Of a DNA stretch of 64,000 nucleotides, positions 981 to 17,621 are shown piece by piece (the first letter of the stretch is position 1; each line of letters opens with the position of its first letter). The stretch comes from Gammaproteobacteria bacterium (GTDB taxonomy: Bacteria; Pseudomonadota; Gammaproteobacteria; GCA-001735895). A model generated the notes under the pieces. That model was not told the DNA's origin. It searched no databases and saw only the letters and a program-made list of their open reading frames with translations. Position numbers and translations under genes: made by a program. The stretch spans positions 62,001-126,000 of the forward strand of contig JASJCI010000032.1 of NCBI GenBank assembly GCA_030066085.1, written 5' to 3'.

Positions 981-1427
981 TCAAGCCGGATCGACGGCCA
1001 GGTCGAAAAAACTGGTGGCGACGAGATCGAGTACCTCGCCGTCCTGCTGGTTGAACAGCTGCCAGCGCCAGCGCAGGATACCGAGGTCCGGGTTGTTGCT
1101 CGCGCGCCGCGTGTCGAGCACCTCGGCGCGCAGCCGCAGCTGATCGCCGGGACGAACCGGGGCCGGCCACCTGACGTACTCCAGCCCTGGCGAAGCAAAG
1201 GATTCGGAGCCGGCGAGCGCGTTGTCCACCAGCAGGCGCATCGCGATGCCGCAGGTATGCCAGCCGCTCGCGATCAGGCCGTCGAAGCGTCCCGTGCAGG
1301 CCCGTTCCGGATCCGCGTGGAACCACTGCGGGTCGTATTGGCCGGCAAACTCGACGATTTCGGCTTCGCTCACCGGGTAAGGACCGGCTTCGATGATGCG
1401 CCCCGGGGTGAAATCGCCGAAGCGCAT
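981..1427 (-). CDS. MaoC-like (R)-specific enoyl-CoA hydratase family protein
   Basis: Predicted 148-residue hot-dog-fold hydratase. It opens with MRFGDFTPGRIIEAGPYPVS and carries the family's AGQYDPQWFHADPE stretch, where the D-x(4)-H pair resembles the MaoC catalytic Asp/His. GLIASGWHTCGIAMRLL and the WPAPVRPGDQLRLRAEVL block follow. The start at 1427 lies 2 bp after the stop of the upstream dehydrogenase gene, which implies translational coupling; the longer frame reaching 1601 only adds an arginine-rich shadow. In this operon it may hydrate an enoyl-CoA intermediate below BoxC, but its exact substrate cannot be read from sequence. Confidence 0.85.
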   Translation of the reverse strand: MRFGDFTPGRIIEAGPYPVSEAEIVEFAGQYDPQWFHADPERACTGRFDGLIASGWHTCGIAMRLLVDNALAGSESFASPGLEYVRWPAPVRPGDQLRLRAEVLDTRRASNNPDLGILRWRWQLFNQQDGEVLDLVATSFFDLAVDPA

Positions 1428-1429
1428 GT

Positions 1430-2941
1430 TCAGGCATGCCCGCCTGTGTCGGACCAGGCGCGCTGGCGCAGCCACGGGCTGACGCGGTAGCGCTCGCCGC
1501 GGTAGGCGGCATCGAGCGCATCGACCAGGCGAATGACGGCCGCCGGTCCCCAGCTCGCTAGCCATTCGAACGGTCCGGCGGGGTAGTTGACGCCGAGACA
1601 CATCGCGCGGTTGGCGTCGACTTCGCTACAGACGCCCTGCTGGACCGCGTCGGCGGCCTCGTTGATCAACATCGCCAGCGTGCGTGCAACCACCAGCCCC
1701 GGCGTATCCTCGACCTGTTGCGGCGCGAAGCCGAACAGCGCGAGCCAGCGCGGCGCCTGCTCCACCCAGTTCGCCGAAGCCCGCTCGGCGTGACTCCACG
1801 CGAGCGCGCTACCGGGTTCGTGCACCAGCGGCAGGTCGAACACGGCGATATCGCGCCCGAGTTCGGCCGCGGTGCGGCCGTCGGTAAGCCGCAGGCGGGC
1901 GCTGTCGACCTGCAGACCGATCCACTTGCTGTCGTTGATGCGCTCGAAGCGGCAGTTGTGTTGTTGCAGGATAGCGGCCATGTGCTCGGCCACCGGGCCT
2001 TGGCCGCGCACGCCGATGTTGTCACGCGACGGTGGGGCGTCGGGCGGGCGGAATCCGGACGTGTCGCCCGCGCCGGCGGCGGGATAGTCGTAAAAGCCGC
2101 GGCCGCTCTTGCGCCCGAGGTGACCGGCCTCGACCAGCGCCTGCTGCACCAGCGACGGCTGGTAGCGCTTGTCGAAAAAGTTGGCTTCGAACACCGAGCG
2201 GGTAACGGCAAAATTGACGTCGTGGCCGATCAGGTCCATCAGTTCGCAGGGGCCCATGCGAAAGCCGGCACCGCGCAGGCAGGCGTCGATTTCGGCCGCC
2301 TCGGCGGCGCGCTCCTGCAGCAGGTTGAGCGCCTCGGCGTAAAACGGGCGCGCGATGCGGTTGACGATGAAGCCGGGCGTGGAGCGCGCATGCACCGCGG
2401 TTTTGCCCCAGTGCCCGGCCAGCGCGAACACGCGCGCGGCGCTGTCGCTGTCGGTTTGCAGGCCCGAGACCACTTCGACCAGGCGCATCAGCGGCACCGG
2501 GTTGAAAAAATGCATGCCGACCAGGCGTTCCGGTTGCGTCATGCCGCGGGCAATGGCGTCGATCGACAGCGACGAGGTGTTGCTCGCGAGCAGGGCATCG
2601 GCCGGCAGGATTCGCTCGAGCTGGACGAACAGCCTGTTCTTGGCCTCGCGATCCTCGACGATTGCCTCGATGGCGATACCGGCATCGCCGGCAGCGGTCA
2701 GTTCGGCAATCGGCGTGATGCGTTCCACTGTCGCGGTAACTTCATCGCCGGTCAGCTTGCCGCGTTCGACCAGGCCGGCCAGCGTCGCGGCCAGCCGCTC
2801 GTGCGCGTCGGCGGCCGCGCCCGCACGGCTATCGTAAAGTGAAACCCGGTGGCCCGCCTGGGCCGCAACCTGGGCGATACCGCTGCCCATGACGCCGGCG
2901 CCGATCACGAGCACGTCGGCGGTTTGATCGTTATGCCTCAT
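1430..2941 (-). CDS. paaH: 3-hydroxyacyl-CoA dehydrogenase, PaaH/PaaC type
   Basis: 503-residue NAD-dependent L-3-hydroxyacyl-CoA dehydrogenase, probably acting on 3-hydroxyadipyl-CoA. The N-terminal Rossmann domain has VIGAGVMGSGIAQVAA (about 12-27). The family signature FNPVPLMRLVEVV and the ARSTPGFIVNRIARPFYAEA stretch follow, then a first C-terminal domain to about residue 290. A second partial copy of that domain ends the protein (PGLVVARTLAMLINEAADAV to the end), the layout of the roughly 500-residue PaaH/PaaC group rather than the roughly 285-residue Hbd group. The start overlaps the upstream hydratase stop by 4 bp. In a box operon this fits the step after ring opening, when dehydroadipyl-CoA is oxidised towards 3-oxoadipyl-CoA. 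Confidence 0.88.
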   Translation of the reverse strand: MRHNDQTADVLVIGAGVMGSGIAQVAAQAGHRVSLYDSRAGAAADAHERLAATLAGLVERGKLTGDEVTATVERITPIAELTAAGDAGIAIEAIVEDREAKNRLFVQLERILPADALLASNTSSLSIDAIARGMTQPERLVGMHFFNPVPLMRLVEVVSGLQTDSDSAARVFALAGHWGKTAVHARSTPGFIVNRIARPFYAEALNLLQERAAEAAEIDACLRGAGFRMGPCELMDLIGHDVNFAVTRSVFEANFFDKRYQPSLVQQALVEAGHLGRKSGRGFYDYPAAGAGDTSGFRPPDAPPSRDNIGVRGQGPVAEHMAAILQQHNCRFERINDSKWIGLQVDSARLRLTDGRTAAELGRDIAVFDLPLVHEPGSALAWSHAERASANWVEQAPRWLALFGFAPQQVEDTPGLVVARTLAMLINEAADAVQQGVCSEVDANRAMCLGVNYPAGPFEWLASWGPAAVIRLVDALDAAYRGERYRVSPWLRQRAWSDTGGHA

Positions 2942-3732
2942 TCGGGTATCCAGCTGGCGGGTCGCTTGGCGAAAAACGCGGCAAACCCCTCGCGCGCCTC
3001 GTCGCTGGCGCGTACGCGGCTGATCGTCTGTGCGCTGCGCTCGCGCACCGCCTCGGTCACCGGTCCCGCTGCCATATCGGCGAAGTAAAGCTTGATCTCG
3101 CGTTGTGCGTTGGGGCTGCCGGCCAGCAGATCGGTCACCGTCGTGTCCACCGCCGCGTCCAGCTCGTCCGCCGCCACCACCGCGTGCACCAGGTCGATGT
3201 TGTGCGCTTCGCCGGCACGAATTCGCTCGGTGGTCAGCGCGAGCCGCCGCGCCTGGCGCTTGCCGACCGCGTTCAGCAGGTAAGGGCCGATGGTGGCCGG
3301 CAAGATGCCGAATTTCGCTTCGCTAACCGCGAAGCTGGCGTTGTCGGCGGCGATTGCGATGTCGCAGGCGCAGACCAGGCCGACACCGCCGCCGAGTGCG
3401 GCACCCTGTACGCGCGCTACCACGGGCTTGGGGCAGCCGTCGATGCGCGCCAGCATCGCGGCGAGCTTGCGCGCATCCTCGAGGTTCCATTCCAGCGAGG
3501 CTTCGCTGGCGCGTTTCATCCAGTCCAGGTCGGCGCCGGCGCTGAAATGCTTGCCCGCGCCGGCGAGTAAAACGATGCGCACGTCGTCATCGGCGGCGAG
3601 AATTTCGAAGGCCGCGTCGAGCTCGGCGATCATGGTTTCGTCGAAGGCGTTGAACACCTCGGGGCGGTTCATCGTCACGCGCGCGACGCCGGCGCGCGGG
3701 CGGTCGATCTCGAGTGTTTCGAAGTTGCTCAT
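2938..3732 (-). CDS. Enoyl-CoA hydratase, methylglutaconyl-CoA hydratase (LiuC)-like
   Basis: 264-residue crotonase-fold protein. It has the oxyanion-hole stretch HFSAGADLDWMKRASEAS (about 63-80) and GAALGGGVGLVCACDIAIAA (about 111-130). FAVSEAKFGILPATIGPYLL carries the expected catalytic glutamate region. The AGADLDWMKR signature and overall pattern resemble LiuC proteins more than generic hydratases. Its operon position between boxB and paaH suggests a job in hydrating dehydroadipyl-CoA. However, the leucine operon near 50-58 kb has no liuC, so this gene could serve that pathway instead or as well. The start at 3732 has upstream GGAGACTGG as ribosome-binding site. Confidence 0.87.
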   Translation of the reverse strand: MSNFETLEIDRPRAGVARVTMNRPEVFNAFDETMIAELDAAFEILAADDDVRIVLLAGAGKHFSAGADLDWMKRASEASLEWNLEDARKLAAMLARIDGCPKPVVARVQGAALGGGVGLVCACDIAIAADNASFAVSEAKFGILPATIGPYLLNAVGKRQARRLALTTERIRAGEAHNIDLVHAVVAADELDAAVDTTVTDLLAGSPNAQREIKLYFADMAAGPVTEAVRERSAQTISRVRASDEAREGFAAFFAKRPASWIPE

Positions 3733-3958
3733 CGTCCAGTCTCCCGCGGAGCGATCGGCATATTACCAGGTAGCCGGTTGCAGGGTTATTGCAGAGGTAG
3801 CCGAATCAATCATCGACCAGTCCAGGCCGGGCAGATTACTTCGCTGCGCTCTTGTGCCCCTTGGGTATTTAGGCCCTTCAGGGTCCGCAATGACGCCAGT
3901 GGTTGCATTGCTCGGGCCCAGACGACCCGTCGGTAACGGTGCCGATGGTAAACGGGAA

Positions 3959-3981
3959 GCCCGGGCCTTGTCGACCCGGGC
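3959..3981 (-). terminator. GC-rich hairpin downstream of boxB
   Basis: A 7-bp perfect inverted repeat (GCCCGGG / CCCGGGC) with a 9-nt loop begins 17 bp after the boxB stop on the minus strand. No strong T-run follows, so it may be a weak terminator or an RNA-stabilising hairpin separating boxCB from the downstream beta-oxidation genes. The rest of the 3733-3997 gap shows only degenerate repeat-like sequence. Confidence 0.35.
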
Positions 3982-3997
3982 CTGCCGCAAGCGCATT

Positions 3998-5425
3998 CTA
4001 GTTGAAGCGCACGTAGTCGAAGTCGACCGGCTGGCCGTTGATGCCGAGCGCGGGCGGTGCGATCCAGTTGGCGAACTTGCCGGGTTCGACGCAGCGACCC
4101 ATCAGGCTCGATACGAACGCGCGGTCCTCTGCGCTCGGTAACCACTGGTCGCGCTTCGCTTCCCACTGTTGCTCGGTGATGACCGTGCCGTCGGGTGCGA
4201 TCGAGGTGCCTGCCAGCGCACCGATCTTGCGGTGGAACCCCTTGTGCGGTACCTGCAGGCGAAACGGCAGGCCGGCTTTTTCGATCACCCGGTTCCAGCG
4301 CTTGACGCCGGACGCGGCTTCGCGGATGTAATCGTCGCGCAGGACTTCGTTCAGTGCGTTGAGCATCGGCACCTGTTTTTCCACCAGCTTGCCGTCGCGT
4401 AACTCGAGCACCGGGTAACTGTCGTTCTTGAGCACGTGGTCGTCCTTGCGCTTGCCCTCGGCATAACGTCCCTTGAGGCCGGTCGAGTAGTAGATCGCCG
4501 CGTTGCTCGATTCGTCGGCGCCAAACAGGTCGACGGTGACGCTGAAGTGAAAATTGAGGTAACGCTGGATCGTCGGCAGGTCGATCACGCCGGCGTTGCG
4601 CAGCGTGGCGACGTCGTCGGTTTTCAGCTGGTTCATGACGTCGCAGGTGCGTTCTATTACGCGTGAAACACCGGTTTCGCCGACGAACATGTGATGCGCC
4701 TCCTCGGTCAGCATGAAGCGCGTGGTACGCGCCAGCGGATCGAAGCTCGATTCGGACAGCGCGTGCAGCTGGTACTTGCCGTCGCGGTCGGTGAAGTAGG
4801 TGAACATGTAGAACGCGAGCCAGTCCGGTGTCTTTTCGTTGAACGCCTGCAGGATACGCGGGTTGTCTTCCTCGCCGCTGCGTCGCTCCAGCAGCGCCTC
4901 GCCTTCTTCGCGACCGTCGCGGCCGAAGTACTTGTGCAGCAGGTAAACCATCGCCCACAGGTGGCGGCCTTCCTCGACGTTGACCTGGAACAGGTTGCGC
5001 AGGTCGTACAGGCTCGGCGCGGTCAGGCCGAGGTGGCGCTGCTGCTCGACCGACGCCGGCTCGGTGTCACCCTGGGTGACGATGATGCGGCGCAGGTTGG
5101 CGCGGTATTCGCCGGGCACGCTCTGCCAGGCGTCTTCGCCCTTGTGGTCGCCGAAGTGAATCTTGCGGTCTTCCTTTGCCGGGTTGAGGAAAATTCCCCA
5201 GCGGTAATCCGGCATCCTGACGTGGCCGAACTGCGCCCAGCCCTCCTTGTCGACGCTGATCGCGGTGCGCAGGTAAACCTCCATGTCCTGCGATTCCTCC
5301 GGCCCCATGTCCTGCCACCAGTCGAGGTAGTTGGGCTGCCAGTGTTCGAGCGCGCGCTTGAGCGCACGGTCCTCGGCGAGGTTGACGTTGTTCGGGATCT
5401 TTTCGTTGTAGTCGATGGATGACAT
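3998..5425 (-). CDS. boxB: Benzoyl-CoA 2,3-epoxidase (BoxB)
   Basis: 475-residue non-haem diiron oxygenase that converts benzoyl-CoA and O2 to 2,3-epoxybenzoyl-CoA, the committed step of aerobic benzoate breakdown via CoA thioesters. Length matches the family. All six expected iron ligands are visible: Glu122 (QGDTEPAS), Glu152 and His155 (VEEGRH), Asp213 (YFTDRDGKY), and Glu242 and His245 (EEAHHM). The assignment is therefore strong and the enzyme looks intact. It lies directly downstream of boxC on the same strand, separated by an inverted-repeat element. Its usual electron-supplying partner BoxA is not encoded in the window. Confidence 0.97.
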   Translation of the reverse strand: MSSIDYNEKIPNNVNLAEDRALKRALEHWQPNYLDWWQDMGPEESQDMEVYLRTAISVDKEGWAQFGHVRMPDYRWGIFLNPAKEDRKIHFGDHKGEDAWQSVPGEYRANLRRIIVTQGDTEPASVEQQRHLGLTAPSLYDLRNLFQVNVEEGRHLWAMVYLLHKYFGRDGREEGEALLERRSGEEDNPRILQAFNEKTPDWLAFYMFTYFTDRDGKYQLHALSESSFDPLARTTRFMLTEEAHHMFVGETGVSRVIERTCDVMNQLKTDDVATLRNAGVIDLPTIQRYLNFHFSVTVDLFGADESSNAAIYYSTGLKGRYAEGKRKDDHVLKNDSYPVLELRDGKLVEKQVPMLNALNEVLRDDYIREAASGVKRWNRVIEKAGLPFRLQVPHKGFHRKIGALAGTSIAPDGTVITEQQWEAKRDQWLPSAEDRAFVSSLMGRCVEPGKFANWIAPPALGINGQPVDFDYVRFN

Positions 5426-5559: not shown

Positions 5560-7212
5560 TCACACCCGGTCCCAGTCGAAGCGGGCCTTGTCGCCACTGC
5601 CGTAGACCTTCAGCGCACCCTGTTCGCCAACCGCGTTGGGGCGCTGGAAGATCCAGTTCTGCCAGGCCGTCAGGCGGCCGAAGATGCGGCTCAACATGGT
5701 TTCGCGACCGTTGAAGCGCAGGTTGGCCTCCATGCCGGTGAGCGCGTCGGGCGATAGCGCGACGCGTTCCTCGAGCGCGATGCGGACTTCGTCTTCCCAG
5801 TCGAGGTCGTCGGGATTGCTGGTGACGAGGCCGAGCTCCAGCGACGCGTCGGCGTCGAGTGGCTGGCCAATGGCCGCGCGCACGGCGTCGAGCGCGGCCT
5901 GCTCGTGGTAAAAGCGCCGTTCGAGCCGGCTTTCGCCGGTGACCATCGGGTACAGCTCGAAGTTGGCATCGCCGACGACCAGCGTGGGTGCCGCGTCCGG
6001 TTCGTCGGGCAGCGCAAGGTGGTAGCTGCGGTCGCAGGCGAGCGCGAGTTCGAGCAATGTGCCGGCGAAACAGGAGCCCTCGTCGATCAGCGCAAACAGG
6101 CTGCGCGACGATACGTCAAGTCGCTGCAGGCTGCGGCGCAGGAAACCGATGGTTTCGCGCACGAACCAGTGATCGCGATGGGCCAGCAGGGTCGCGTCCA
6201 TTGCCAGCACCGCGTTGGCATCACCCTCGGTGCGCAGGATCCAGGTGCCGAGATCGAGTTCGTTGGTGCGCATCGTCAGGATGGCATCGTCGAGATCGCG
6301 CGCCAGGCGCAGGGCATACCAGTCGGCGCCGGCGGCCTCGATCGCGCCGGGTTCGGTCGGCTGTTCACCCTCGGGTGCGCCGATGACGAAGGTTGCGGTG
6401 CGCGCGGCTCGGTCCATCTCGATACGCAGGGTCGAGTAGTGCAGGGCGTCAGCCTCGGCGCGACGCTCGATCGGCGCCAGTTCGACCCCGCTCGTTGTGG
6501 TCGAAGGAATACCGGCCGCCGCGAGCGCCAGCGCGTGTTCGCGCACGGTGTCGTCGAACGCGGCCGGTTTGGCGATATCGTCGACCAGGCGCCAGTCTTT
6601 CGCGCGCTGGCCGCGCACACCCTCGGTGGTGGTACAAAAGATATCGGCGAGATCGTGGCGCACGTGGCGCTTGTCGGTTACGCGCGTGAGGCCGCCGGTG
6701 CCGGGCAGGACCCCGAGCAATGGCACCTCGGGCAGGCTCACCGAGCTCGAACGATCGTCGACCAGCAGGATCTCGTCGCAGGCGAGCGCGAGTTCGTAGC
6801 CGCCGCCGGCGCAGGCGCCATTGATCGCGGCGAGAAACTTGAGGCCGTCGTGGCGCGACGAATCTTCCATGCCGTTGCGGGTCTCGTTGGTGAACTTGCA
6901 GAAATTGACTTTCCAGGCGTGACTGCTGAGACCGAGCATGAAGATGTTCGCGCCGGAGCAGAAAATGCGCTCCTTGTTGCTGGTTATCACGACGCAGCCC
7001 ACCTCGGGGTGCTCGAAGCGAATGCGGTTGAGCGCGTCGTTGAGCTCGATGTCGACGCCGAGGTCGTAGCTGTTGAGCTTGAGCTTGTACCCCGGACGCA
7101 GGCCGCCGTCCTCATCGAAGTCGGCGTGCAGTGTCGCCACCGGGCCGTCGAACGTCAGCTGCCAGTGTCGGTAGCGAGACGGATCTGTGCGGTAGTCGAC
7201 GGGATCGGTCAC
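5560..7212 (-). CDS. boxC: 2,3-epoxybenzoyl-CoA dihydrolase (BoxC)
   Basis: 550-residue ring-cleaving enzyme of the crotonase superfamily. It hydrolyses 2,3-epoxybenzoyl-CoA to 3,4-didehydroadipyl-CoA semialdehyde plus formate. The first crotonase-like half holds ERIFCSGANIFMLGLSSHAW (about 81-100) and INGACAGGGYELALACDEIL (about 129-148), followed by SLPEVPLLGVLPGTGGLTRV. The second, degenerate half ends in WQNWIFQRPNAVGEQGALKV. Length and these blocks match BoxC. The start overlaps the boxR stop region by 4 bp, so boxR, boxC and probably boxB form one transcript and the regulator is autoregulated with its targets. Confidence 0.96.
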   Translation of the reverse strand: MTDPVDYRTDPSRYRHWQLTFDGPVATLHADFDEDGGLRPGYKLKLNSYDLGVDIELNDALNRIRFEHPEVGCVVITSNKERIFCSGANIFMLGLSSHAWKVNFCKFTNETRNGMEDSSRHDGLKFLAAINGACAGGGYELALACDEILLVDDRSSSVSLPEVPLLGVLPGTGGLTRVTDKRHVRHDLADIFCTTTEGVRGQRAKDWRLVDDIAKPAAFDDTVREHALALAAAGIPSTTTSGVELAPIERRAEADALHYSTLRIEMDRAARTATFVIGAPEGEQPTEPGAIEAAGADWYALRLARDLDDAILTMRTNELDLGTWILRTEGDANAVLAMDATLLAHRDHWFVRETIGFLRRSLQRLDVSSRSLFALIDEGSCFAGTLLELALACDRSYHLALPDEPDAAPTLVVGDANFELYPMVTGESRLERRFYHEQAALDAVRAAIGQPLDADASLELGLVTSNPDDLDWEDEVRIALEERVALSPDALTGMEANLRFNGRETMLSRIFGRLTAWQNWIFQRPNAVGEQGALKVYGSGDKARFDWDRV

Positions 7213-8135
7213 GATGGGTTCTCCTCGGGGTGCAGGTGTTGCCGGATGAGCATGTGCAGGCTTGCGAAAGTGTCGGCCAGCGGCGCCGTGCTGGTGTCGA
7301 GGCGGTAGCTGGCCTTGGAGTAAAAGGGTTCACGCGCCGACAGTATGCTCCTGAGGTCGGACATGGCTTCGTCGCTGCCGGCCATCGGCCGAAAGTCACC
7401 CTGTTCGATCACGCGCAGCATGTGATCCTCGGGCCGTGCCTGCAGCCAGACCGTCGCGGTACCGGCGAGCAGCAGGTTGAAGGTTGCGGCCTCGGACACC
7501 AGGCCCCCGGGCGTCGCGATCACGACCTCCCGGTGATTATCGATGACCTGCTCGAGCGCGCGCCGCTCGTGCCGGCGGTAGGCGCCCGCGCCGTAAAGGG
7601 CCTGGATCTCGCCGATGCTGCAGCCGGCCAGCGCCTCGATCTCGCGGCTCAGTTCGACGAATTCGAAGCCCAGTTCGCGCGCGAGCATTTGTCCCAGGGT
7701 CGACTTGCCGGCGCCGCGCAGGCCGATCAGCGCGATACGGCGGACGCTGCTGTCGGCCGGTGCTTCGTCGAGCAGGTCGGCGATCGCGATGCGCACGCGG
7801 CGCAGCGTCGCCTCGTCGCGGTGTTGCAGCAATGATCGCAGCAGTAACCATTCCGGCGAACGGGTCGTGACATCGCCGGTGAGTTCGGCCAGCGCGCAGT
7901 CCAGCGCGTCGGCAACCTGCTGCAGCACCAGTACCGACGGGTTGCCGTCACCATACTCGAGATTGGCCAGGTGACGCTCGGATACACCGGTGCTGGCGGC
8001 CAGCGACTTGCGCGTAATGCCGCGGCGTTCGCGCAGCGCTCGTACCCGCTCGCCCAGCGTCACGAGCACCGGGTTGGGCGCTCGCTGCCGCGGGGAGGAC
8101 GAATCTGCGGCTGTCGATTTGGTCAAACCGATCAC
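7209..8135 (-). CDS. boxR: BoxR/BzdR-type regulator: HTH fused to shikimate-kinase-like domain
   Basis: About 308 residues. A Cro/CI-type helix-turn-helix (GERVRALRERRGITRKSLAA ... VSERHLANLEYGDGNPSVLV) is followed by a shikimate-kinase-like domain with Walker A GLRGAGKST. This is the architecture of BoxR/BzdR, repressors that release DNA on binding benzoyl-CoA. A longer frame starting GTG at 8177 is possible, but its extra 14 residues come from AT-rich operator/promoter sequence containing TGCA motifs, so GTG 8135 is preferred; neither start has a clear ribosome-binding site. It is transcribed with boxC (4-bp overlap) and divergently from the DUF4863-bclA operon, a position allowing control of both arms. 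Confidence 0.93.
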   Translation of the reverse strand: MIGLTKSTAADSSSPRQRAPNPVLVTLGERVRALRERRGITRKSLAASTGVSERHLANLEYGDGNPSVLVLQQVADALDCALAELTGDVTTRSPEWLLLRSLLQHRDEATLRRVRIAIADLLDEAPADSSVRRIALIGLRGAGKSTLGQMLARELGFEFVELSREIEALAGCSIGEIQALYGAGAYRRHERRALEQVIDNHREVVIATPGGLVSEAATFNLLLAGTATVWLQARPEDHMLRVIEQGDFRPMAGSDEAMSDLRSILSAREPFYSKASYRLDTSTAPLADTFASLHMLIRQHLHPEENPS

Positions 8136-8143
8136 GTTGTAGA

Positions 8144-8190
8144 TGCAATATAATGCAGTAGTTGAAATTTTGTGCACAATAATTCATATT
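8144..8190. promoter_or_regulatory. Divergent promoter region with TGCA operator motifs (putative BoxR sites)
   Basis: Three TGCA motifs occur at 8144-8147, 8154-8157 and 8173-8176. The last is the centre of a perfect 10-bp palindrome TTGTGCACAA (8170-8179). A plus-strand promoter fits TTGAAA (8162-8167), a 17-bp spacer and CATATT (8185-8190), with the palindrome inside the spacer. On the minus strand TTGTGC (8179-8174), an 18-bp spacer and CATTAT (8155-8150) is possible. BzdR/BoxR regulators are known to recognise TGCA repeats, so repression of both divergent transcripts is inferred. Confidence 0.65.
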
Positions 8191-8240
8191 GCGTCAAATA
8201 ACAAGGGGCCGCCGCGCCCGATCGTCGGGGGAGGACGAAC

Positions 8241-8705
8241 ATGAGCGAAACAGACTTACGCCAGCAAATCAGCGACCTGACCGCCGCCATCGCCGGTCGC
8301 GCGCTCGATGCAAACCTGCAGGACTGGCTCAATGACAATCACGGAACCGGCAGCGAGACTTTCGAGCGCCTGCGCAACAGCTGTCGCCAGGGTGTCGCCG
8401 AGGGCTGGCTGTGTCAGTACGAGGCCGGCGGTATCCGCTACGGCCGCGTGTTCAAACCGGCGGACGACCTGCAGGGTTTCTCGGTCGACGTGGTCGACAT
8501 GAACGAGGTTGTCGGCCCACATCACGCGCACCCCAACGGCGAGATCGATCTCGTCATGCCGAGCGAGGGTGACGCGCGTTTCGATGGTCATGGCGCCGGC
8601 TGGGTCGTGTATCCACCCGGCAGCGCGCACCATCCGACCGTGTCCGGCGGGCGCGCATTAGTCCTGTACCTGCTGCCCGCAGGCAGCATAGAATTCACCC
8701 GCTAA
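8241..8705 (+). CDS. DUF4863 family cupin-like protein of the box locus
   Basis: 154-residue soluble protein. The N-terminal helical part (1-85) precedes a small cupin-like region with GPHHAHPNGEIDLVMP (about 92-107), whose His-x-His-x(4)-Glu spacing could bind a metal, and WVVYPPGSAHHPTVSGG (about 117-133) supplies a further histidine pair. I recognise it as DUF4863, a family repeatedly seen next to benzoyl-CoA epoxidation genes; its biochemical role is unknown to me. It is the first gene of the plus-strand operon, 53 bp ahead of bclA. A role in handling a reactive ring-opening intermediate is possible but only inferred from the neighbourhood. Confidence 0.8.
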   Translation: MSETDLRQQISDLTAAIAGRALDANLQDWLNDNHGTGSETFERLRNSCRQGVAEGWLCQYEAGGIRYGRVFKPADDLQGFSVDVVDMNEVVGPHHAHPNGEIDLVMPSEGDARFDGHGAGWVVYPPGSAHHPTVSGGRALVLYLLPAGSIEFTR

Positions 8706-8758: not shown

Positions 8759-10330
8759 ATGAGCGACGCAAACCCGGCCGCACCGGCCGAGCGTTTCAAC
8801 TACGCCGCGCACCTGTTCGAGCTCAACCGGGGCAGGGCCGACAAGACCGCCTACATCGACGACGACGGCAGCCTGACTTTCGGCCAACTGGACGACAACG
8901 CGCGGCGACTGGCCGCCGGCCTGCTCGCGGCGGGCATCCGCCGCGAGGAACGCGTGCTGCTGCTGATGCACGACAATAACGACTGGCCGGTGGCGTTTCT
9001 CGGTGCGATGTACGCCGGCATCGTGCCGGTGGCGGTCAACACGCTGCTGCCGGCCGACGATTACCGTTACATGCTGAAGCACAGCCGCGCTCGCGCCGCA
9101 CTGGTATCGAATGCACTGATGCCGGTGCTGCGCGAAGCCATGGCTGCCGGTGAGCACGAAGTCGAAACCGTGGTCGTGTCGCACGCAGACGACAGCCTTG
9201 CCGATGGTGAACAGGCTTTCGATGCGTTCCTTGCCGCCAGTGATCCACTGGCCGCCGCGGCGGATACCCATCGCGACGATCCCGGCTTCTGGCTGTACTC
9301 GTCCGGCTCGACCGGCAAGCCCAAGGGCACGGTGCACACGCACGCCAATCCCTACTGGACCAGCGAACTCTACGGGCGCGGCGTGCTCGGCATCGGCGAG
9401 GACGATGTCTGTTTTTCCGCCGCCAAGCTTTTCTTCGCCTACGGGCTTGGCAACGCGCTGACCTTTCCATTGATGGTCGGCGCCACCAGCGTACTGTACG
9501 CGGGCCGGCCGACACCCGACGCGATCTACCAGCGCCTGCTCGCGCACCGGCCGACGCTGTTCTTCGGTGCGCCCACCGGTTACGTCGCGATGCTTGCCAG
9601 TGCCGATATCCCGGCCAACGAACAGCTCGCGCTGCGGCTCGCGGTGTCCGCCGGTGAAGCACTGCCGGCCGATCTTGCACAGCGTTTCAGCCAGCAGTTC
9701 GGGGTCGACGTGATCGACGGTATCGGTTCGACCGAGATGCTGCATATCTACATTTCGAATCGTCCCGGCGAGGTCCGTTTCGGGTCGTCGGGTTACCCGG
9801 TGCCGGGCTACGACATCGAGTTGCGCGGTGACGACGGTCAACCCGTGGCCGATGGCGAAATCGGCGAACTCTACGTGCGTGGCCCGAGTGCGGCGCTGAT
9901 GTACTGGAGCAACCGCGCAAAAAGTCGCGATACCTTCCGCGGCGACTGGACCCGCAGCGGTGACAAGTACGTGCGCAACGACGACGGCAGCTACACCTGC
10001 TCCGGGCGCAGCGACGACATGCTGCGCGTCAGCGGCATGTACGTTTCGCCGTTCGAGGTCGAAGCCACGCTGCTGGAGCATGCGGCGGTGCTGGAATCGG
10101 CGGTCATCGGCAAGACCGATGCCGATGGCCTGGTCAAGACCAAGGCGTTCGTGGTGCTCGCGCAGGGCGGGCAGGCCAGCGCCGAGGAGCTGCAGGCGTT
10201 CGTCAAGCAACGCCTGGCACCGCACAAGTATCCGCGTTTCATCGAGTTCGTCGACGAGTTACCGAAGACCGCAACCGGCAAGATCCAGCGTTTTCGCCTG
10301 CGCGAACGCGAGGCAGCGGCCGGCGAGTGA
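8759..10330 (+). CDS. bclA: Benzoate-CoA ligase
   Basis: 523-residue adenylate-forming enzyme that activates benzoate to benzoyl-CoA with ATP and CoA. Visible motifs are the P-loop YSSGSTGKPKGTVHTH (about 181-196), FFGAPTGYVAML, the adenine-binding GIGSTEMLHIYISN and SGRSDDMLRVSGMYVSPFEV. The catalytic-lysine stretch PKTATGKIQRFRLRE is at the C-terminus. FNYAAHLFELNRGRADKTAY at the start and the TEMLHIYISN segment are characteristic of benzoate-CoA ligases rather than long-chain synthetases. A GGAGGAGACC-like ribosome-binding site precedes the start. It lies in the operon divergent from boxR and overlaps the next gene by 4 bp. Confidence 0.95.
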   Translation: MSDANPAAPAERFNYAAHLFELNRGRADKTAYIDDDGSLTFGQLDDNARRLAAGLLAAGIRREERVLLLMHDNNDWPVAFLGAMYAGIVPVAVNTLLPADDYRYMLKHSRARAALVSNALMPVLREAMAAGEHEVETVVVSHADDSLADGEQAFDAFLAASDPLAAAADTHRDDPGFWLYSSGSTGKPKGTVHTHANPYWTSELYGRGVLGIGEDDVCFSAAKLFFAYGLGNALTFPLMVGATSVLYAGRPTPDAIYQRLLAHRPTLFFGAPTGYVAMLASADIPANEQLALRLAVSAGEALPADLAQRFSQQFGVDVIDGIGSTEMLHIYISNRPGEVRFGSSGYPVPGYDIELRGDDGQPVADGEIGELYVRGPSAALMYWSNRAKSRDTFRGDWTRSGDKYVRNDDGSYTCSGRSDDMLRVSGMYVSPFEVEATLLEHAAVLESAVIGKTDADGLVKTKAFVVLAQGGQASAEELQAFVKQRLAPHKYPRFIEFVDELPKTATGKIQRFRLREREAAAGE

Positions 10331-16214: not shown

Positions 16215-17621
16215 ATGAAAGCCTTTTTCAGAATGCTGTCTGTAACGCTGCTCGCGACCGCGCTGGTGGCCTGCGGATCCAGCAGTGACGACGACGATGA
16301 CATCATCGGCACCGTTGACGCGCGCAACGTCGTTGAAGTCGCCAGAGCCAGCGGATCGTTCACGATCCTGACCGCCGCACTCGAGACTTCGGGTCTCGAC
16401 ACCGTGCTTGCCGACGAATCCCGCGAGTTTACCGTTTTTGCCCCGACTGACGCCGCCTTTACGGCTGCCCTGACCGACCTGGGCATAACGGCCGGCGACT
16501 TGCTTGCATCACCAAACCTGCAGGACATCCTGTTGTACCACGTGATCCTCGACGCAACAGTCGATTCCACCGCGGCGATTGCCGCCGCCGGCACCACGGT
16601 TACCATGGCAAATACCGACGAAGTCGGCATTTCGCTGCGGGGCGCGGACCTGTTTGTCAACGCGTCACGGGTAGAAACTCCCGACATCGGGGCCAACAAC
16701 GGCGTGATCCACGTGGTGGACGCGGTACTGCTGCCGACCGAGGACGATCCGGCCGCCGGGTCGATCACCGCCGTGGCTGCCGGTAACGCGAGTTTCAGTA
16801 CGCTGGTGGCCGCGCTGCAGATGGCACACCTCGACTCGGTACTCGATGACGCCACTGGCAAGTTCACCGTTTTTGCGCCGACTGATGCGGCCTTCGGTGC
16901 CTACCTTGCCAAGCAGGGTATCGACGCCAACGACTTGCTGATGTCGCCGCAGCTGGCGGACATCCTGCTTTACCACGTGATTCCGGGCATAGAAGTCAAC
17001 GCCGCCGCGGCAACCGCGATCGCGGGCAACAGCGTAGTGATGGCCAACGGTGACGACATGGCGCTGTCCCTGAGCGGGATGGACCTGTTTGCAAACCTGT
17101 CGAAGGTCGAGGCGCCGAACGTGGACGCCAGTAACGGCATCATCCACGTTATCGACACCGTCCTGACGCCGCCGGCAGATGTCGTGGCGCCGACCCAGAC
17201 CATCGCGGAGATCGCCCTGGGTAATGCCGACTTCTCGATCCTGGTGGCTGCGCTGCATACGACCGGTCTCGACGCCACGCTGAACGACCCGACCCAGAAC
17301 CTCACGGTATTCGCGCCGACCAATGCCGCCTTCGCGGCACTGTTGGCCAACCTCGGGATTACCGATACGCAGCTGCTGGCGAACCCGGACCTCGCGAAGA
17401 TCCTGCTCAAGCACGTGGTCGGTGGATCTGTCGATTCGGTGACTGCGTTTACCCTGAACGGTGCCGAGGCCGCGACTCTGAATCCCGACGGCGAGACGAT
17501 AACGCTCGCAATCGATTCCGACGCGTTCACGGTCGACGGAGCCGAGGTTATCGCCTTTGATATCCGTGCTACCAACGGCATCATTCACGTCATCGACGCG
17601 GTTATCACGCTCGACCCGTAA
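16215..17621 (+). CDS. Lipoprotein with three fasciclin (FAS1) domains
   Basis: 468 residues. An N-terminal lipobox (signal ending LVAC at Cys20) is followed by an acidic Ser/Asp linker, so it is a membrane-anchored lipoprotein. Three tandem FAS1 domains follow at about 37-175, 180-318 and 325-466. Each has the H1 motif TVFAPTDAAF (TVFAPTNAAF in the third), an ILLYHV or ILLKHV stretch and an NGIIHVIDAVL-type H2 motif. FAS1 domains mediate adhesion or binding of hydrophobic or polymeric ligands; the particular ligand is unknown. It is monocistronic, with an ACGGAGAA ribosome-binding site before the ATG and a strong terminator after the stop. Confidence 0.93.
   Translation: MKAFFRMLSVTLLATALVACGSSSDDDDDIIGTVDARNVVEVARASGSFTILTAALETSGLDTVLADESREFTVFAPTDAAFTAALTDLGITAGDLLASPNLQDILLYHVILDATVDSTAAIAAAGTTVTMANTDEVGISLRGADLFVNASRVETPDIGANNGVIHVVDAVLLPTEDDPAAGSITAVAAGNASFSTLVAALQMAHLDSVLDDATGKFTVFAPTDAAFGAYLAKQGIDANDLLMSPQLADILLYHVIPGIEVNAAAATAIAGNSVVMANGDDMALSLSGMDLFANLSKVEAPNVDASNGIIHVIDTVLTPPADVVAPTQTIAEIALGNADFSILVAALHTTGLDATLNDPTQNLTVFAPTNAAFAALLANLGITDTQLLANPDLAKILLKHVVGGSVDSVTAFTLNGAEAATLNPDGETITLAIDSDAFTVDGAEVIAFDIRATNGIIHVIDAVITLDP

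Follow-up and report, generated by a model that had tools for sequence, protein, structure and literature searches.

Two probable docking sites for the repressor BoxR lie unusually close together in a boxR/DUF4863 spacer of a gammaproteobacterial genome

Introduction

The operators of the repressors BoxR and BzdR were described to contain TGCA repeats 1, 6 or 15 nt apart, usually within longer palindromes, the main form being ATGCACTATAGTGCAT (PMC6449761). In the box divergons of Betaproteobacteria, the BoxR sites were reported to be almost always multiple and to be separated mainly by three to five DNA turns (Suvorova and Gelfand 2019, PMC6449761). The PN promoter of Azoarcus sp. CIB, which is controlled by BzdR, was described to carry three operator regions (OR1-OR3) over about 177 bp (-146 to +31), occupied by four dimers, as well as an AcpR site; with OR1 alone the promoter was repressed without release by benzoyl-CoA, for which OR2 and OR3 were needed (PMC6678401). 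The BoxR of Azoarcus sp. CIB is a paralogue of BzdR that represses the box genes and responds to benzoyl-CoA (cited in PMC4424350); its description by Valderrama et al. (2012) is known here through citing papers, and its likeness to the present locus is given at the level of the repressor only. In the published model, BoxR dimers occupy the TGCA sites and leave them when benzoyl-CoA binds (PMC6449761, PMC6678401, PMC4424350). BoxR, its TGCA sites, their multiplicity and their separation by several turns are already in print (PMC6449761). The papers given by PMC number are cited from excerpts of their text throughout.

The stretch analysed here, referred to as the window, comprises 64,000 nucleotides and contains a box divergon in which boxR-boxC-boxB is set against DUF4863/bclA and boxA is absent. 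The gene order is that of the betaproteobacterial box loci in the excerpted text of PMC6449761. As in the BoxR operators of that paper, a TGCA-N6-TGCA arrangement and multiple sites were found between the boxR-boxC arm and the DUF4863 (pfam16155)/bclA arm. An earlier note on this DNA had pointed to three TGCA words in the spacer, to a 10-bp palindrome formed around one of them, and to a promoter on either strand. Judged by analogy with the published operators, BoxR would most likely dock at two places in this spacer, which lie unusually close together.

Materials and Methods

Ninety regions upstream of boxR homologues were collected, consisting of the window, nine loci of the same genus and 80 loci of named records, the latter being the best 80 of 577 confirmed relatives, by which the sample leans to close relatives. 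One region of 60 nt only (L092) and ten near copies were dropped, leaving 79 distinct regions, in which related species (e.g. of Cupriavidus) were retained; L015, L016 and L017, which show 40-44% identity and lack such sites in their upstream DNA, were excluded from the 79 before counting. The sites were scanned with the published BoxR consensus only, and a distance of 20-70 bp was allowed within a pair. The BoxR tree was built from 26 of the 74 rows with a site pair, chosen by the authors.

Results

Genes of the box divergon

The regulator was found to contain the Pfam domains HTH_3 (32-86) and SKI (141-284), i.e. an XRE helix-turn-helix fused to a shikimate-kinase-like domain, and matched NF006015 with 422.4 bits against a cut-off of 204, in agreement with the earlier identification as BoxR. 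The TTG start of boxR is proposed from the alignment to the MTK start of the relatives, and a GTG at 8138 is possible as well. The left arm was found to contain boxR followed by boxC, boxB, an enoyl-CoA hydratase-family gene and a 3-hydroxyacyl-CoA dehydrogenase gene, and the right arm the DUF4863 (PF16155) gene followed by genes for a benzoate-CoA ligase, an alpha/beta hydrolase and an ABC transporter (Table 1).

Table 1. Coordinates of the genes, putative operators and putative promoter elements of the box divergon in the window
Feature	Position	Strand	Remarks
boxB	3998-5425	-	TIGR03225, 892 bits
boxC	5560-7212	-	TIGR03222, 939 bits
boxR	7209-8126	-	Pfam HTH_3 and SKI; NF006015, 422 bits; TTG start at 8126 by alignment
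Putative operator O_B, ATGCAATATAATGCAG (+)	8143-8158		TGCA-N6-TGCA, the published layout; 13/16 to the published BoxR consensus
Putative rightward -35, TTGAAA	8162-8167	+	17-bp spacer to CATATT
Palindrome TTGTGCACAA	8170-8179		Real, unique in the genome, not conserved (present in 1/74 loci)
Putative operator O_A, GTGCACAATAATTCAT (+)	8172-8187		TGCA-N6-TTCA; 12/16 to the published consensus
Putative boxR -10, TATTGT	8176-8181	-	Inside O_A; at that place in 63/74 loci
Putative rightward -10, CATATT	8185-8190	+	Hexamer at the same place in 17/74 loci
Putative boxR -35, TTGTTA	8199-8204	-	17-bp spacer; TTG at the same offset in 73/74 loci
DUF4863 / PF16155 (PnbB-like) gene	8241-8705	+	First gene of the rightward operon; E 5.9e-55
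bclA, benzoate-CoA ligase family	8759-10330	+	TIGR02262, 782 bits

The two putative operators

The spacer was found to contain the three TGCA words (8144-8147, 8154-8157 and 8173-8176), with a gap of 6 nt between the first and the second and of 15 nt between the second and the third, both of which are among the published BoxR/BzdR spacings; a 6-nt spacing alone is not rare, being present three times in the window with 1.05 expected. The first two words, which had been taken to flank a minus-strand -10, were found to be both halves of a canonical operator, O_B. The second putative operator, O_A, includes the third TGCA and most of the TTGTGCACAA palindrome. That TGCA is the core of a BoxR operator is borne out by the published operators (PMC6449761). 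With a matrix made from the other 73 loci, O_B scored 18.2 bits, against a median of 29.1 in the relatives, and the runner-up elsewhere in the window reached 8.0. O_A scored 28.6 bits, against a median of 28.3, the next best position in the window being O_B with 12.5. No third BoxR site was found in the 64-kb window, where only O_A and O_B reach 12/16 to the consensus. The pattern TGCANWATAWTKCAW, composed after both sites had been seen, was found at four places in the genome, two of which are O_A and O_B.

Conservation of the site pair among boxR loci

A pair of 16-bp BoxR-like sites was found in 74 of the 79 distinct boxR upstream regions, which derive from the window, the same-genus loci and the best 80 of 577 relatives. 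The start-to-start spacing was found to be 49 bp in 61 loci, 48 bp in three, 50 bp and 51 bp in two each, 52, 54 and 45 bp in one each, 41 bp in two, and 29 bp in the window alone, which is the shortest among the 74 and lies outside the 49-bp layout of the relatives. The 61 loci with 49 bp could be aligned without gaps and were found to contain islands of conservation mainly at O_B and the -35 that overlaps it, at the -10, at O_A and at the boxR -35. At least one of DUF4863, bclA and boxC was present in the fetched DNA of 72 of the 74 paired loci, the exceptions being L080 and L101, which contain weak pairs (54 and 52 bp, respectively) and none of the three genes in their fetched DNA. Of 12 same-genus regions inspected, that of the window included, 10 were found to contain GAATTATTGTGCA; the other two, L016 and L017, are distant homologues at 40-42% identity.

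No site pair was found in five of the 79 regions (L093, L102, L107, L108 and L109), three of which have boxC nearby. In a held-out check, two Mycetohabitans plasmid loci were found to contain an O_B-like site with TTGAC (14/16) and a weak second site (10/16) 51 bp off on the boxR side; O_A was not found at +49 in either, with 4 and 5 of 16 matches. In the loci sampled, the 49-bp layout is common and not universal, since the Mycetohabitans loci lack O_A and five of the 79 regions show no pair. These two loci (L141 and L142) place a box divergon on records of megaplasmid size and deviate from the common layout in a second, different way.

A class-wide pattern search in 369 genomes, which fixes one variant of O_A and undercounts for that reason, returned only the genome of the window and one other (G109), the latter with 49-bp spacing. 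Among the relatives, no compact spacing was found other than in L011, L012 and L018, and the 29-bp spacing, i.e. the shortening by 20 bp, is represented by one assembled genome.

The putative rightward promoter

The operator consensus alone was used to choose the sites, and the promoter elements were still found at fixed places. The usual rightward promoter of the relatives contains TTGAC from O_B+14 in 66 of 74 loci, which makes one half-site of O_B AGCA instead of TGCA, followed 17 bp on by a -10 of the form TAnnnT just before O_A. As positioned from the hexamers, the relatives would have two overlapping divergent promoters whose starts lie within a few bases of each other. The window was found to lack the TTGAC overlapping O_B; its O_B+14 reads AGTAGT, and the usual promoter is left with 3/12 matches.

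The TTGAAA-17-CATATT promoter proposed earlier was found again, with 9/12 consensus matches, and from its sequence it is likely to be the replacement rightward promoter of the window. The shifted -35 starts 10 bp before O_A, compared with 35 bp in the usual case, which is a shift of 25 bp, and the spacer and the -10 cross O_A. The hexamer CATATT was present at this place mostly alongside an intact usual promoter, so the hexamer alone means little. In L011 (41 bp) TTGCAA-17-CATATT and in L012 (41 bp) the weaker GAGAAA-17-CATATT, whose -35 has only 3/6 matches, were found at the same place relative to O_A, and in both loci the TTGAC at O_B was lost as well. In the BoxR tree of 26 rows, L011 and L012 group with the window at a support of 93/92, which lies under the program's starred level. 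L010 (49 bp), which stands outside this clade, was found to contain a degraded usual promoter (6/12) and a shifted one scoring 9, and L018 (45 bp), a separate case, keeps TTGATC at O_B. A shifted promoter of at least 7 was found in four of the six loci whose usual promoter has 6/12 or less and in two of the 68 others (Fisher p 0.0002, kinship ignored); three of the four loci with a lost usual and a strong shifted promoter belong to one clade, and the counts are not phylogenetically independent. By these sequences, the start signal of one gene set has apparently moved to lie under a repressor site.

The loss of the usual TTGACA/TAnnnT promoter, together with a substitute of only 9/12, would also be expected if the operators were real and the window had no working rightward promoter of its own, in which case DUF4863-bclA would be transcribed weakly or from some other place and the compact spacing would be a sign of decay. 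This is unlikely, since the genes of the right arm are complete and undamaged members of their families, O_A scores at the median of the relatives, and in L010, outside the clade of the window, a degraded usual promoter is accompanied by a shifted one scoring 9 too.

The putative boxR promoter and the palindrome

On the boxR strand, O_A reads ATGAAT-TATTGT-GCAT. Counted upstream from O_A, a TTG was found to start at a distance of exactly 17 nt in 73 of 74 loci, which gives a 17-bp spacer to TATTGT; the next best offset was found in 9 of 74. The window keeps this promoter as TTGTTA-17-TATTGT with 8/12 matches. The minus-strand -10 had earlier been placed at TATATT. On that strand, TGCACA-18-TATATT has 9/12 matches in the window, one above TTGTTA-17-TATTGT; on conservation, TATATT was rejected as the boxR -10, which is better placed at the TATTGT inside O_A.

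The palindrome TTGTGCACAA itself was confirmed, and its centre lies 1.5 bp from that of the spacer between TTGAAA and CATATT, as the earlier description of a centred palindrome had it. It is present as a single copy in the window (chance expectation 0.04) and at a single place in the 4.39-Mb genome. This uniqueness, its place within a promoter spacer and the one-match advantage of TGCACA-18-TATATT would fit a reading in which the palindrome itself serves as operator for BoxR, with the outer TGCA pair doing no more than flank a minus-strand -10, but that reading is improbable. The palindrome was present in one of the 74 homologous boxR regions, that of the window, and in the relatives ATGCACAATAATTCAT is the conserved form. 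On the boxR strand, TATATT falls at the centre of O_B, and the -35 assigned to it would stand at another distance in loci with 49 bp between the sites, whereas 73 of 74 loci conserve the putative boxR promoter in O_A. The palindrome was ruled out as a BoxR operator on the count of 1/74, and its role as a functional operator was not borne out. For related box loci, where conservation of TGCA had been named as a check, the TGCA core was found to be conserved and the palindrome was not.

The bare count of TGCA is weak evidence, since three or more words were obtained by dinucleotide shuffling in 91 of 5000 cases for 8120-8240 and in 632 of 5000 cases for the AT-rich core (8139-8195), and the whole window shows no enrichment (271 with 263 expected). 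That the sites are nothing but TGCA words in an AT-rich intergenic stretch is nevertheless the least credible reading of all, as none of the 5000 shuffles made of each stretch gave a pair scoring as close to the published BoxR consensus and the conservation is position-specific in 61 gaplessly aligned loci, so that by sequence statistics the pair of sites is already beyond chance.

Discussion

Proposed control of the two arms

On the observed sites, spacings, conservation and gene identities, the boxR/DUF4863 spacer is considered, with a probability of roughly three in four, to be a compact BoxR control module in which two sites are present, O_A lies across both promoters, and repression is released by benzoyl-CoA. 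We infer BoxR binding, the dimers per site, the use of the promoters and the induction by benzoyl-CoA, with binding and response carried over from the published BoxR/BzdR work. One BoxR dimer would occupy each 16-bp site. The dimer at O_A would cover the -10 (TATTGT) of the boxR promoter as well as the spacer and the -10 of TTGAAA-17-CATATT, and since O_A spans elements of both promoters, BoxR bound there would keep RNA polymerase off both. O_B, which directly precedes the rightward -35 and lies 3′ of the putative boxR start, should hold the second dimer. Release of BoxR by the benzoyl-CoA that BclA forms would open both arms, and boxR would be under its own control. The earlier proposal that one repressor could shut both arms is retained in that O_A overlaps both putative promoters, but through other letters and with another boxR promoter than had been proposed.

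In the relatives, the sites are 49 bp apart, the rightward -35 TTGACA overlaps O_B and the rightward start would lie at O_A. In the window, the sites are 29 bp apart and the putative rightward promoter is displaced downstream by about 25 bp with respect to O_A; by this shift, O_A would cover promoter elements and not the start site.

Comparison with described systems

Unlike the sites of PMC6449761, which are separated mainly by three to five turns in the excerpted text, the two sites of the window lie about 2.8 turns apart, and unlike in the betaproteobacterial box divergons, the putative rightward promoter is without overlap with O_B. As at PN (PMC6678401), an XRE-shikimate-kinase repressor is combined with TGCA palindromes of the N6 and N15 type and with sites over the core promoter; benzoyl-CoA, the inducer at PN, is predicted to be that of the window too. 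Whereas the PN operators extend over about 177 bp, the two sites of the window lie within 45 bp, and no third operator region of the PN type was found beside O_A and O_B at 12/16 in the window. Benzoyl-CoA releases BzdR only where the extra sites are present, and the induction threshold of the compact form may differ for that reason.

No description of the exact 49-bp layout, of the shared promoter letters or of the compact form was found in the excerpted text of PMC6449761, PMC6678401, PMC4424350 and PMC10803450 or in literature listings of openly licensed papers.

A tentative history of the spacer

Somewhat short of an even chance is given to the following history. A near-frozen module of Beta- and Gammaproteobacteria, in which the sites lie 49 bp apart and back-to-back promoters each share letters with one site, would have been rewired in the clade of the window: the rightward -35 would have left O_B, a new promoter would have arisen across O_A, O_B would have moved 20 bp closer, and its AGCA half-site would have become TGCA. 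O_B would have been free to move and to gain TGCA because it no longer doubled as a -35. The change of 20 bp corresponds to about two helical turns, by which the sites may keep roughly the same relative faces; this is arithmetic and not evidence.

If this history is true, the locus would be a natural case of how spacing is constrained when a repressor site also serves as a promoter element, and it would show how such a constraint vanishes once the promoter moves. The accepted picture of benzoate regulation is unchanged, since BoxR, TGCA operators and induction by benzoyl-CoA are known. In place of a vague palindrome, a testable map is obtained of the letters that BoxR should read and of both promoter starts.

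Further observations on the box genes

No match to boxA above the family cut-off was found in a search of the whole genome of the window. The window's boxB is present without boxA (3732-3998 and the whole genome), and another reductase may serve BoxB. Among 31 genomes of the genus, several of which are incomplete, boxB was found in 12 (E 1e-80 or better); two of these 12 (G004 and G022) contain boxA above the family cut-off. G029 was found to contain boxA without boxB, and G012 contains boxA fragments. The boxC-boxB arm seems to run on leftwards with genes for a MaoC-like dehydratase, a BenE-type benzoate transporter and an MFS transporter, at 981-1601 (-) and at G000:C45:61717-63198, the latter extending into the window. 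On the other side, immediately 3′ of the ABC transporter genes of the right arm, 16215-17621 was found to encode a protein with three fasciclin-domain stretches.
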